Shown here: in pieces, positions 24,063-29,179 of the stretch
Position numbering within the stretch: position 1 is the stretch's first letter
How the letters are laid out: every line of letters starts with the position of its first letter
Source: Phenylobacterium sp.
GTDB taxonomy: Bacteria > Pseudomonadota > Alphaproteobacteria > Caulobacterales > Caulobacteraceae
DNA length: 64,000 nucleotides
NCBI RefSeq assembly: GCF_030693405.1
Contig: NZ_JAUYAW010000007.1
Location: 1 to 64,000, forward strand
Direction: 5' to 3'
Notes under the pieces: model-generated
Database searches by the model: none
Seen by the model: only the letters and a program-made list of their open reading frames with translations
Told to the model about the DNA's origin: nothing
Position numbers and translations under genes: made by a program

Positions 24063-24778
<716 letters not shown>

Positions 24779-25603
24779 ATGCGTCTGACCCGCCTTATGT
24801 CCGCCACCGCCATCGCCGCCCTCGTGTCCGGCGCCGCCCACGCACAGACCGTCGATCCCGCGCCCTCTACGCCGTCGGCCGGGATGCCCGCCGCTCAGGC
24901 GGGCGCCGAGGCGCGCGCAGGCGGTCAGGTGTCGCCGGCTGGGGACATCGTCGAGACGGTCCAGGCGTCAGGCCAGTTCACGACCCTTATCAAGGCGCTC
25001 GAGGCGACCAACCTGGTTCAGCTTCTGAAGACCACCCCGAACCTCACCGTGTTCGCCCCCACGGACGCCGCCTTCTCGGCACTGCCGGCCGGTGAGCTGG
25101 ACCGCCTGATGGCTGAGGAGAACCGCGCCGAATTGCAGAAGCTGCTCACCTACCACGTGGTCAACGCCCGCCTCGATGGCGCGAAGATCGAGAACTCCCG
25201 GGGCCCGGTCCCCACCGTGGCTGGAGAGGCCATCCAGGTTGATGGCGTCGAAGAGACCTGGATGATTGGTGAAGCCCGGATCACCCAGGCCGACATCAAC
25301 GCCGACAACGGCGTGATCCACGTGGTCGACAAGGTGCTCATGCCGGGCGCCATACCGGCGGCCGGCGCTGCAGCCGCGTCTGGCTCTGACGCCTCGGCGA
25401 TGATGGAAGCTCCGGCTCAGGGCGTCTCCGGCGCGATGTCGGAGCCGTCGCCGGAAATGGCCCCGATGGGCGCTGCCAGCGACACCTCGGCCAGCGTCTC
25501 GGCCACTCAGATGCAACCCATTCCGGACACTCCGGAAAATCGCGCCGCTTATGGCGCACCGCTTTCCAACGCCGGTAAACGCACCGCCGCTGAGAGCAAC
25601 TAA
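24779..25603 (+). CDS. Secreted fasciclin (FAS1) domain protein
   Basis: A 274-residue exported protein. The ATG at 24779 (MRLTRLMSATAIAAL) is chosen because it follows GAGAGG and starts a signal peptide ending AHAQ; ATG 24773 is a near alternative. An Ala/Gly-rich linker leads into one FAS1 domain (about 55-185): ATNLVQLLKTTPNLTVFAPTDAAF is its H1 region and VIHVVDKVLMP its H2 region. A long Ala/Ser/Met-rich, probably disordered tail then ends in PIPDTPENRAAYG...AGKRT. FAS1 domains mediate cell-surface adhesion. The last 30 residues match the tail of the next gene's product, 57 bases downstream. Confidence 0.88.
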   Translation: MRLTRLMSATAIAALVSGAAHAQTVDPAPSTPSAGMPAAQAGAEARAGGQVSPAGDIVETVQASGQFTTLIKALEATNLVQLLKTTPNLTVFAPTDAAFSALPAGELDRLMAEENRAELQKLLTYHVVNARLDGAKIENSRGPVPTVAGEAIQVDGVEETWMIGEARITQADINADNGVIHVVDKVLMPGAIPAAGAAAASGSDASAMMEAPAQGVSGAMSEPSPEMAPMGAASDTSASVSATQMQPIPDTPENRAAYGAPLSNAGKRTAAESN

Positions 25604-25660
25604 GCCGATGGCAGGGCGCTGGGGGGACCTGCGGTACGACCAAACCCAAGGAATCCAGCA

Positions 25661-26194
25661 ATGAACCTCAAGCTTGTTCTTTCGACCTCGGCGGCCGCCC
25701 TACTCGTGGCGTCCGCCGCCCACGCCCAGACCGCCTCAGGCGGCATGACCGGCGACATGTCCGGCCAGGCCGCAGGCGCCGTCAGCGGCCCTGCCGATCA
25801 CACCCGGTCCAGCACCGGTCTGCCATCGGTTGATTCGACCCGTCCCACGGGCGCCGACGCCGGTCGCACCAACATGCCGGGGGGCCAGATCACAGGCGCC
25901 ACCGCCATGGAGGATGACGCGGTCAATGCGCAGGGCGCCATGCGGGGCGCGACGCAGAACAGCGCCTCCATGAACAGCGGCGGCATGTCGGCGGACACCG
26001 GCATGACCGCGAGCGGTCAGGGCCAGATGAACACCCAGGCCCAGTCGGCCGGCTCCATGGGGGCTATGGCCTCCAGCACCACCGGCGCCCAGGTGACGAC
26101 CAATGGTCCGATCCCGGACACGGAGGAAAACCGGGCCAAGTATGGCGAGCCCCAGTCCCGGGCCGGCAAGATGACCGAACCCAGCGGCAACTGA
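25661..26194 (+). CDS. Secreted low-complexity protein sharing its tail with the FAS1 neighbour
   Basis: A 177-residue protein with a signal peptide (about 1-23, ending AHAQ). The body is rich in Gly, Met, Ser, Thr, Ala and Gln, with no recognisable fold (GGMTGDMSGQAAG, NSGGMSADTGMTASGQGQ). The end reads PIPDTEENRAKYG...AGKMTEPSGN, almost the same as the end of the FAS1 protein. AAGGAATCCAGCA precedes the ATG. The short spacing to the FAS1 gene and the strong terminator after this one suggest a two-gene unit. No function is known to me. Confidence 0.75.
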   Translation: MNLKLVLSTSAAALLVASAAHAQTASGGMTGDMSGQAAGAVSGPADHTRSSTGLPSVDSTRPTGADAGRTNMPGGQITGATAMEDDAVNAQGAMRGATQNSASMNSGGMSADTGMTASGQGQMNTQAQSAGSMGAMASSTTGAQVTTNGPIPDTEENRAKYGEPQSRAGKMTEPSGN

Positions 26195-26219
26195 TCTTCG
26201 CCGCGCGCTTGATGCACAG

Positions 26220-26252
26220 GTCGGCGGGCCCTATGGTCCGCCGACTTTTTTT
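26220..26252 (+). terminator. Strong terminator upstream of glyQ
   Basis: GTCGGCGGGCC (26220-26230) pairs with GGTCCGCCGAC (26235-26245) around CTAT, followed by TTTTTTT. It ends only 20 bases before the glyQ ATG, so it closes the FAS1/tail-protein unit and may also affect glyQ expression. Confidence 0.85.
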
Positions 26253-26272
26253 GCGCCTGCAAATCAGCCCAG

Positions 26273-27175
26273 ATGTCCTCAGAAAAACCGCTCTCGTTTC
26301 AGGGCCTGATCCTGAAACTCCATGACTATTGGAGCCGCCAGGGTTGCGTGATCCTGCAGCCGCACGACGTCGAGGTAGGAGCAGGCACGCTTCACCCGGC
26401 CACGGTGCTGCGCGCGCTCGGTCCAAAGCCGTGGCGGGCGGCCTATGTGCAGCCCTCCCGCAGGCCTGCAGACGGCCGCTATGGGGAGAACCCCAACCGG
26501 CTGCAGCACTATTACCAGTACCAGGTGATCCTGAAGCCAAACCCCGACGACCTGCAGGATCTCTATCTGGGCAGCCTCGAGGCCATCGGCCTCGACACCC
26601 GCCTGCACGACATCCGCTTCGTCGAGGACGACTGGGAGAACCCCACCGTGGGCGCCTGGGGCCTGGGCTGGGAGGTCTGGTGCGATGGTATGGAAGTGAC
26701 TCAGTACACCTACTTCCAGCAGGTGGGGGGCGTGGACGTCTGGCCGGTGGCCGGCGAGCTCACCTACGGGCTGGAGCGGTTGGCCATGTATCTGCAGGGC
26801 GTCGACCATTTCACCGACCTGGCCTTCAACGATCCGGACGGGCCTGCGCCCATGACCTATGGCGAGGTGTTCCTGGAGAACGAGCGCCAGCAGTCGACGG
26901 CCAATTTCGACGGCTATGACGTGGCCACGCTCAAGCGCCAGTTCGAGGACATGGAGATTCAGGTCCCGCGCCTGCTTGCGATGAAGGGGCCGCAGGGCCA
27001 GGCCATCGTCCTGCCTGCCTATGACCACGTGCTGAAGGCCAGCCACCTGTTCAATCTGATGGACGCCCGCGGCGCCATCGCGGTGGCCGAGCGCCAGAGC
27101 TATATCGGCCGTATCCGCGACCTGACCAAGATGTGCGCCGAGGCCTGGGTGACCAATGAAGGGGGCAACGCCTAA
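26273..27175 (+). CDS. glyQ: Glycyl-tRNA synthetase alpha subunit
   Basis: A 300-residue class II synthetase subunit of the bacterial alpha2beta2 glycyl-tRNA synthetase. Recognisable motifs are [12 protein letters not shown] (N-terminal), [36 protein letters not shown] (motif 2 region) and [13 protein letters not shown] (motif 3). Its length matches the family. glyS follows after 3 bases. Confidence 0.97.
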
Positions 27176-27178
27176 GTC

Positions 27179-29175
27179 ATGCCCCAACTGCTTCTTGAGC
27201 TCTTTTCCGAAGAGATTCCTGCGCGCATGCAGGTTCAGGCCGCCCGTGACCTGGAGCGCATGGCCCGTGAGCGCCTGGCCGAGCAGGGCTTCCTGCCCGA
27301 GGCCATGACCGCCTTCGCCGGCCCCCGTCGCCTGACCCTGGTGATCGAGGGCCTGCCCGAGGCCCAGGCCGACCGGACCGAAGAGCGCAAAGGCCCCCGG
27401 GTCGGCTCGCCGGAAAAGGCCATGGAAGGCTTTCTGCGCTCCACCGGCCTGACGATGGACCAACTGGTCGATCAGGACGGGGTCTGGTTTGCGAAGATTG
27501 AACGCAAGGGCCGGCCGACGCCGGAGATCATCGCCGAGATGGTCGAGGCCATTGTGCGGAACTTCCCCTGGCCCAAGTCGATGACCTGGGGGCGGGGGAC
27601 CCTGCGCTGGGTCCGGCCGCTGAAGCGGATCGTCTGCCTGTTCGACGGGACGGTCGTGCCGGTCTCCATCGATGGGATCGTGAGCGGCGACGTCACCGAG
27701 GGCCATCGCTTCATGGGCAAGGCCCAGCCCTTCCGCGTGAAGGACTTCGACACCTATCGCGACGGCTTGGCCGCCCATTTCGTTGTGCTGGACGTGGAAG
27801 AGCGCAAGGCGCGCATCCTCGACGCCGCCCGCACCCTCTGCTTCGCCCGCAATCTGGAGCTGGTGGAGGACGAGGGCCTGCTGAACGAGGTCGCGGGCCT
27901 CGCCGAATGGCCGACGCCGGTCCTCGGCGACATGGACCCCGACTTCCTGGACCTGCCGCCCGAGGTGATCCGCACCTCCATGCGCACGCACCAGAAGTAT
28001 TTCGCCGTGCGTGACCCGGCGACCGGGGGGCTCGCGCCCCACTTCATCACGGTGGCCAATATACAGGCGGCGGACGGCGGGGCGGCCATCGCCGCGGGCA
28101 ACGCCAAGGTGCTGTCGGCCCGCCTGTCGGACGCCCGCTTCTTCTGGGACGAGGACCGCAAGCTGCGGCTGGAAGACCGGCTGGATAAGCTGAAGGGCGT
28201 TACCTTCCACGCCAAGTTGGGCGCCATGTCCGACCGTGTGGCCCGCATCACCGACCTCGCCCGCAGCCTGGCCCCCCGGGTCGGCGCCGATCCAGACGCC
28301 GCGGCCCAGGCCGCCCGCCTGGCCAAGGCGGACCTGGTCACCGGCATGGTCGGGGAGTTTCCTGAGCTGCAGGGCCTGATGGGTGGCTACTACGCCCAGG
28401 CCGAGGGTCTGCCGGCCGAGGTGGCCGCCGCCATTCGCGATCACTACAAGCCGCAGGGACCAAGCGACGCCCTGCCGGCCGGCCCCGTGGGCGCGGCGCT
28501 CGCCCTGGCCGACAAGCTCGACAGCCTGACCGGCTTCTTCGGCATCGATGAAAAGCCCACGGGCTCGCGCGACCCCTACGCCCTGCGCCGCTCGGCGCTC
28601 GGCGTGATCCGCATCGTGCTTGAGGGCGGCATCCGACTGCCCCTGCGCGAGCTGGCCGGCGACGATCTGGTGGCCTTCTTCGCGGACCGCCTGAAGGTCC
28701 TGCTGCGCGACCAGGGCAGGCGGCATGATCTGGTGGACGCCGTCTTCGCCCTCGGCGACGACGACCTCGTGCGGATCGTGGCCAGGGTCGAGGCCCTCGA
28801 CGGCTTCCTGACCACCGAGGACGGGGTCAACCTGCTGGCCGGCTATAAGCGGGCGACCAATATCCTCAAGGCCGAGGAAAAGAAGGGCGCCATGCCCTCG
28901 GGGCCTGCGGTCGCCATGGGCGGCGCGCCCGAGGCCGAGCTCGCCCTGGTGGCGGCCCTGGCCGGGGTGGAGCCGCGGGTGGCCCAGGCCCTGGCCGCTG
29001 AAGACTTTGTGGCCGCCATGCAGGCCCTGTCGGGTCTGCGCGGTCCTGTGGACGCCTTTTTCGAGCAAGTGCTGGTGAATGCTGAAGACCCCGCAGAACG
29101 GGACAACCGCCTGCGGCTTCTGAGCCAGGTCCGCGACGCCATGGGGCGCGTGGCGGATTTCAGCCAAGTGACGGG

Positions 29176-29179
<4 letters not shown>
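27179..29179 (+). CDS. glyS: Glycyl-tRNA synthetase beta subunit
   Basis: A 666-residue beta subunit that binds tRNA-Gly together with GlyQ. It starts [18 protein letters not shown], the typical N terminus. It continues with [32 protein letters not shown] (HD-like region) and a C-terminal anticodon-binding domain. Co-transcribed with glyQ; its TGA lies inside the first codons of ppdK (4-base overlap), implying translational coupling to ppdK. Confidence 0.97.

Follow-up and report, generated by a model that had tools for sequence, protein, structure and literature searches.

A conserved C-terminal tail on a small family of exported proteins in Caulobacteraceae, encoded mostly at one locus beside glyQS

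We analysed a 64,000-nucleotide stretch of a Phenylobacterium sp. genome (contig NZ_JAUYAW010000007.1, positions 1 to 64,000; hereafter the window), in which two adjacent genes for apparently exported proteins lie just upstream of glyQ and glyS. The features of this locus are:

24779..25603, + strand: exported FAS1 protein of 274 aa that ends in the tail, PF02469 match, start chosen as described below
24779..24844, + strand: predicted signal peptide of the FAS1 protein, MRLTRLMSATAIAALVSGAAHA, cut before Q (heuristic; kept among the relatives aligned)
24974..25345, + strand: FAS1 (fasciclin) domain, profile match E = 9.8e-36
25346..25507, + strand: linker of the FAS1 protein, low-complexity and poorly conserved
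25508..25600, + strand: first copy of the 31-residue tail, followed by the stop codon at 25601-25603
25661..26194, + strand: exported low-complexity protein of 177 aa that ends in the tail and belongs to no known family
25661..25726, + strand: predicted signal peptide of the low-complexity protein, MNLKLVLSTSAAALLVASAAHA, cut before Q (heuristic)
25727..26098, + strand: Gly/Met/Ser/Thr/Ala low-complexity body
26099..26191, + strand: second copy of the 31-residue tail, followed by the stop codon at 26192-26194
26218..26252, + strand: terminator-like hairpin followed by 7 T, 3' of the tail gene, ending 20 bases before glyQ
26273..27175, + strand: glyQ (glycyl-tRNA synthetase alpha), the syntenic anchor
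27179-29179: glyS, after glyQ

The names glyQ and glyS are ones we presume from the protein sequences. For the FAS1 protein we took as start the ATG preceding the signal peptide (24779); the listed open reading frame begins at 24704, and the signal-peptide heuristic favoured the ATG at 24773. This first protein is clearly a FAS1 protein (PF02469, E = 2.6e-35, 121.8 bits vs a Pfam cut-off of 22). The second matched no Pfam or NCBIfam model, in agreement with the earlier observation that the bodies of the two neighbours differ; UrcA (TIGR04433) gave an above-cut-off match in neither. In the window's lineage a second conserved stretch, ADHTRSSTGLPSVDSTRPTGADAGRT, lies at 25793-25870 (residues 45-70 of the low-complexity protein) in an otherwise variable body. 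Another terminator-like hairpin is found at 24564-24596 on the minus strand, between the divergent glnB and FAS1 genes; it is on the glnB strand, but upstream of glnB.

The FAS1 protein ends in PIPDTPENRAAYGAPLSNAGKRTAAESN-stop and the low-complexity protein in PIPDTEENRAKYGEPQSRAGKMTEPSGN-stop. The two tails are identical at 18/28 residues and directly precede the stop codon in each gene, as the sequence-only reading had noticed; the motif it described is present, and the real conserved stretch is longer, 31 residues including the last Asn. BLASTP of the two whole proteins (E = 1e-9) aligned 87 columns that comprise linker and tail and finish with the tail. A profile of 11 tails, which includes both window tails, matched only the window pair in their own genome (E 2e-19 and 3e-17, with matches considered up to E 10); the genome's second FAS1 protein, encoded on contig C23, lacks the tail. 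A chance origin of the shared tail is excluded, because many genomes carry it at the same position ahead of the stop codon.

We took the family to be searched as Caulobacteraceae, from six named relatives of the second protein (Phenylobacterium and Caulobacteraceae assemblies). A 29-row tail profile matched 169/390 family genomes and 14/22 genera (E <= 0.001), so the tail extends well beyond this gene pair; the remaining 221/390 genomes gave no match at this threshold, and the tail is therefore dispensable in many lineages. An earlier scan of the family with the 11-tail profile, in which nearly all candidates were scored, matched 63/149 genomes (E <= 0.001), with one copy in 51, two in 10 and three in 2. 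The proposition that the tail occurs only in this gene pair, as a local duplication, is thus false for the family and nearly true for the locus.

Outside the family, a class sample of 385 genomes (four family genomes and 381 outside by the kinship column) gave a match to the 29-row profile in the window's own genome alone and in none of the 381 (E <= 0.001), at most 21 candidates being scored per genome in the class scans, so that remote relatives could escape detection. With a broader profile, to which divergent tails had been added, 17/385 genomes matched at E <= 0.02, the window's own among them; we rejected the 16 outside the family, of which G487 and G314 fell below 0.001, as chance matches to short stretches in unrelated or non-coding frames. 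Two order scans (200 and 299 genomes) gave strong tail matches inside the family only. Weak ones outside it, six in all (five genomes in the first scan, one of these again in the second), were recorded for five genomes at E 0.003-0.008 and for G652 at 8e-4; on reading these too are chance, none being a protein C-terminus of the tail kind. Searches of plasmids and of the PDB for the tail returned nothing, and 19 pattern matches in viral contigs yielded 0 confirmed tails. To the limit of the samples searched, the tail is family-specific.

The tail consensus is TNGP[VI]PDTxENRAxYGxPxSxAGK[RHM]Tx[AP]xGN-stop, some members having one residue fewer after the Tyr, and 32 divergent tails show no variation in six columns (P4, D7, R12, P18, S20 and G23). 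We collected 101 distinct tail proteins, whose loci come mostly from best-scoring matches, so that divergent tails are under-sampled. The tail end is the protein end in 96/101 (94 Asn, 2 Asp), by our own reading of the counts, which take in 3 secondary matches and one tail shorter by a residue; the motif is C-terminal, and the opposite outcome raised at the outset, a motif lying inside proteins, is false. Gly-Asn stands at the C-terminus of 89/101 tail proteins vs 0/313 control ORFs, 9/313 of the controls ending in Asn. The exceptions (L018, L088, L100, L101 and L102) are divergent or extended members in which the tail is not at the protein end, and the free Asn end is therefore not universal.

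Conservation is concentrated in the tail. Within the window's own lineage, mean pairwise identity among 6 FAS1-tail sequences (that of the window included) is 0.81 for the tail and 0.84 for the FAS1 domain, and 0.37 for the linker; among 7 low-complexity sequences (again including that of the window) it is 0.82 for the tail vs 0.57 for the body. Because the tail is kept while the bodies change freely, it is probably the working part of these proteins. At unchanged residues of 84 gapless tails the third codon positions vary, and Ser-20 is encoded by TCN or AGC; since these rows were selected by a pattern that fixes several residues, only their silent variation counts, and it shows selection acting on the protein. 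The pN/pS of the same 84 tails is 0.47, a saturated value dominated by free columns, on which we place no weight. The tail is acidic over columns 1-11 and then basic, with a mean charge of +4.3 over columns 12-31 (84 tails). AlphaFold runs on alignments of 6 and 7 rows gave mean pLDDT of 37 and 48, and placed the best-scored ten-residue block in the tail both times (means of 71 and 75), where ENRAxY forms a short helix. The FAS1 domain itself was left unmodelled because the alignments are shallow, and the models therefore say nothing on docking; they lend weak support to a preformed tail motif.

Export of the tail proteins, as the sequence-only reading had it, is supported by a crude signal-peptide test, which 91/94 tail proteins passed vs 128/313 control ORFs under a similar test; the control set itself includes exported proteins, and the 94 are what remains of 96 after omission of the chance ORFs L075 and L076. 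Two of the three failures are cut by contig ends and the third has no Lys or Arg. The AxAQ signature, a sharper criterion, is present in 82/93 tail proteins vs 38/313 control ORFs.

The tail also sits on unrelated bodies, as the window pair had suggested. A FAS1 domain is present in 15/93 tail proteins and an UrcA body (TIGR04433) in 3/93, the UrcA-matched stretch finishing before the tail in each of the three:

L083:3847-4440: UrcA-tail protein
L084:4286-4765, - strand: UrcA-tail protein
L045:1501-2082, - strand: UrcA-tail protein

The surroundings of these three genes gave no match to glyQ, glyS, amtB, glnB, ispE or the window FAS1 protein. Because the UrcA bodies are unrelated, the tail is modular, and the sequences indicate that it travels between unrelated exported proteins. 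The 78 proteins with non-FAS1 bodies have bodies of 41-131 residues in which Ala, Thr, Ser, Pro and Gly are dominant, with a mean net charge of -3.5. Other matches among the 93 were single and weak (BimA_second, PRK05270, T7SS_Rv3446c and EccD, E 0.001-0.009).

Unrelated exported bodies (FAS1, UrcA and low complexity) with a tail at the extreme C-terminus are what one would expect of a sorting or anchoring signal read by a transpeptidase, a protease or a secretion machine and leading to covalent attachment or outer-membrane passage. In PEP-CTERM and LPXTG-type signals a hydrophobic membrane segment precedes basic C-terminal residues, and Lpp-type proteins have a C-terminal Lys that serves peptidoglycan linkage. 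Against such a signal, the tail has no hydrophobic stretch (the highest 15-residue mean hydropathy in the last 31 residues of 78 proteins is 0.21); no PEP-CTERM, LPXTG or type IX CTD model appeared among the matches of the 93 tail proteins; the last residue is Lys in 1/101 and Asn in 94/101; position 24, with Lys in 69/84 and Arg in 13/84, offers no fixed Lys acceptor; and a genome holds just 1-3 candidate substrates. We consider this explanation quite unlikely. The suggestion that the tail is a general sorting or anchoring signal accordingly finds no support, with 1-3 copies per genome, 86/101 of the examined tail genes at one place, and the features of known covalent signals absent; the tail may still anchor by binding.

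Clustering of neighbouring genes defined this place: glnB and amtB lie on one side of the tail locus and glyQ and glyS on the other. Of 101 tail ORFs, 86 are followed on the same strand, at no more than 1.8 kb, by a glyQ match, a further three (L139, L096 and L136) are beside glnB or amtB, and 12 are elsewhere or not placed at the glyQ/glnB locus. Eight of these 12 (L083, L084, L097, L099, L102, L103, L105 and L156) have more than 4 kb of downstream sequence without a glyQ and are therefore really elsewhere. One of them, at L099:3872-4760, adjoins another small, apparently secreted protein whose start, by eye, resembles what we take to be CHRD-type proteins. No neighbour recurs beside tail genes except those of the shared locus. 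With one to three copies per genome and 86/101 at one syntenic place, the shared tail of the window pair is best read as that of one gene family with diverged bodies.

Could shared descent then account for everything? The tail would be that of a tandem duplicate and would only stabilise a disordered protein, for example against C-terminal proteases. The concentration at one locus, the minority of genomes with tandem copies and the polar C-terminus are in keeping with this. Six invariant columns in 32 divergent tails nevertheless exceed the needs of a protective cap, and FAS1 and UrcA proteins carry the tail too; shared descent alone strikes us as rather improbable.

The tandem copies in some genomes, together with a signal peptide, a variable spacer and a conserved C-terminal peptide, also recall a secreted-peptide precursor, whose spacer would be disposable and whose tail would be cut free to act as a signal or as an antimicrobial peptide. 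The residues before the tails, however, show by eye no obvious common cleavage site, FAS1 and UrcA domains carry the tail as well, and there is no recurrent neighbour beyond the shared-locus genes. A precursor role is in our view distinctly unlikely.

We compared the glyQ loci of 102 genomes, 30 genomes having been added for their absence of a strong tail match (29 of these usable). The tail is present at 73/102 loci, and FAS1 is fused or adjacent to it, in either order, at 55/73: FAS1 then tail at 26, tail then FAS1 at 8, a fused FAS1-tail gene at 9, and a fused gene with a second tail gene, the type of the window, in 8 genomes, with four rarer orders besides. Loci with the tail and no FAS1 have one tail gene (15) or two (3); the remaining loci have FAS1 without the tail (9) or neither (20, including four genomes from outside the family). 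Some loci have short upstream flanks; among the 48 tail loci whose boundary is marked by glnB, FAS1 is present at 40. On a quick glyQ tree the fused state requires at least 8 changes, 5 of them forced by well-supported branches, and on a quick FAS1 tree of few columns at least 4, 3 of them so forced; FAS1 and tail have probably been fused or split several times. At L050:1498-2502 (minus strand) a FAS1 gene and a tail gene share one open frame with the second signal peptide still inside, as would result from a recent fusion or from an error in the sequence.

Because of these fusions and neighbours we for a time favoured FAS1 as the partner of the tail, which would dock on the FAS1 domain in cis where the two are fused and in trans where the genes neighbour. 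Both the 55/73 association and the repeated change of the fused state on the FAS1 tree speak for it. We dropped the idea mainly because 6 of 8 genomes with only the tail at the locus (G093, G091, G808, G841, G061 and G832, two of which consist of a single contig) gave no FAS1 match anywhere at E <= 0.001; G084 and G106 have one each. An obligatory partnership is thereby already contradicted, and phylogenetically independent pairs split evenly, 1.4 for and 1.4 against, being only 5 and too few for significance. Docking on FAS1 is very unlikely.

Between tail gene and glyQ, the hairpin loop contains a -10-like TATGGT (26232-26237), which with TTGATG at 26209-26214 makes a promoter-like pair for glyQS. 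By automatic test the hairpin is present at 63/73 tail loci, 7/9 FAS1-only loci and 1/20 loci with neither (the last looks like chance), and its copies are mostly near-identical in sequence. The promoter-like pair TTGA-N17-TA, with its -10 in the hairpin loop, occurs at 76/83 loci with the hairpin pattern. Where the tail and FAS1 genes are missing, the g2 and g20 genomes retain CCCTATGGTCC without the palindrome, and the g3 and g14 genomes have a similar but changed version of it. L162 and L163, which have neither tail nor FAS1, retain degraded hairpin arms. The simplest reading of this arrangement is that a terminator of the upstream unit is overlaid on the glyQS promoter, and the tail gene would then be a separate transcription unit. 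Rfam gave a single match in 24380-26400, far below the gathering score. Matches to the consensus of EcfG-type general-stress promoters upstream of the tail genes numbered 2/93 under a strict form (0.25 expected from shuffles) and 4 under a loose one (1.95 expected), and such a promoter is not a general feature of tail genes.

Because a hairpin with a T-run lies before glyQ, we followed the idea that the tail region controls glyQS as a nucleic-acid or nascent-chain element, namely a leader peptide, an attenuator or a translation-arrest peptide. A signal peptide combined with a C-terminal motif that ends at the stop does resemble export-monitoring arrest peptides as described in PMC10987492. We nonetheless rejected a leader-peptide or attenuator role, since synonymous codons vary in the tail and the promoter-like -10 inside the hairpin loop could let glyQS transcription start after the tail gene. 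Moreover, RAPP-like motifs occur in the last 60 residues of only 2/101 tail proteins, a FAS1 gene stands between tail and glyQ in the g21, g4 and g5 genomes, and glyQ is absent from the stretch of over 4 kb downstream of each of the eight copies named above. Control of glyQS by the tail is hardly credible.

What the tail proteins share can be stated plainly: they are a low-copy, family-specific family of exported proteins with a conserved, recognition-like C-terminal module, encoded mostly at one locus. Short C-terminal modules on exported proteins usually indicate a dedicated machine or binding partner. We suggest, tentatively and at somewhat less than an even chance, that the tail is the C-terminal recognition motif of this small family and docks via its free C-terminus to an envelope partner; of the readings considered we hold this docking, with the same reserve, to be the most likely. 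The proteins of this Sec-exported Caulobacteraceae family, encoded mainly between glnB/amtB and glyQS, would be made with a signal peptide and released into the periplasm or beyond. There a rapidly diverging Ala/Thr/Ser/Pro spacer, mostly of low complexity, would only hold the tail, whereas a FAS1 or UrcA domain, where present, would add a second function in some lineages. The 31-residue motif at the C-terminus would consist of two halves, the acidic PVPDTxENRAxYG, for which a short helix is predicted, and the basic xPxSxAGK[RHM]Tx[AP]xGN-COOH, and would dock non-covalently, its terminal Asn carboxylate included, to one conserved envelope partner, either a protein or an anionic polymer. Sequence conservation, C-terminal position, predicted export, modularity, family restriction within the samples examined, low copy number and synteny belong to the observed side of this proposal; we infer the docking, the need for a free carboxylate and the partner. 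Since the majority of the copies examined represent a single orthologous gene, the tail could be conserved for any function of the small protein, not docking.

A bolder form of the docking proposal, which we regard as unlikely, makes the tail a family-specific address tag: an envelope receptor would read the free Asn carboxylate and gather spacers, FAS1 and UrcA to one place. If true, such a tag would be a non-covalent sorting or assembly principle without a membrane segment, new to description. The tail has sharp limits, is missing from the protein-family libraries that were searched and is family-restricted in the samples, so that a receptor could be sought directly with a 31-residue peptide, and Caulobacteraceae include the model genus Caulobacter. 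A receptor would give a function to a gene that many genomes keep at a fixed position next to glyQS and that, unless fused to FAS1, matches neither a Pfam nor an NCBIfam model. The tail is apparently undescribed so far: its letters matched nothing in open-licence PMC papers, searches of these papers showed no description of it, and a search of the same literature for fasciclin, Caulobacter and C-terminal returned nothing. The earlier remark that no described signal of this sequence is known thus finds support in Pfam, NCBIfam, the PDB and this literature.

Among known systems, the Sec-monitoring arrest peptides SecM and ApdP (PMC10987492) have an N-terminal export signal, a variable middle and a conserved C-terminal motif, with RAPP-like motifs near the C-terminus (other motifs are also described), and are encoded upstream of the secA, secDF or yidC gene that they regulate. 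The tail proteins share the N-terminal export signal (by the crude test), the variable middle and the conserved C-terminal motif. They differ in that the next housekeeping gene is glyQ in 86/101 rather than secA, secDF or yidC, that a terminator-like hairpin and a promoter-like site precede the downstream gene, and that some bodies, such as FAS1, are folded. Like other FAS1 proteins (PF02469), of which Fdp of Rhodobacter sphaeroides is reported to be important for adherence (PMC7561615), the first window protein clearly contains a FAS1 domain, preceded by a predicted signal peptide. Its tail, however, lies outside that domain, is missing from other FAS1 proteins at the locus, and is found also in genomes without a FAS1 match. 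The UrcA family (TIGR04433) supplies the body of three tail proteins, whereas neither window protein matches it. The PEP-CTERM/exosortase, LPXTG/sortase and type IX CTD systems differ from the tail, which lacks a hydrophobic segment, is carried by few proteins per genome and matches no model; what they have in common with it is that exported proteins whose bodies are unrelated end in the same kind of short, conserved module.
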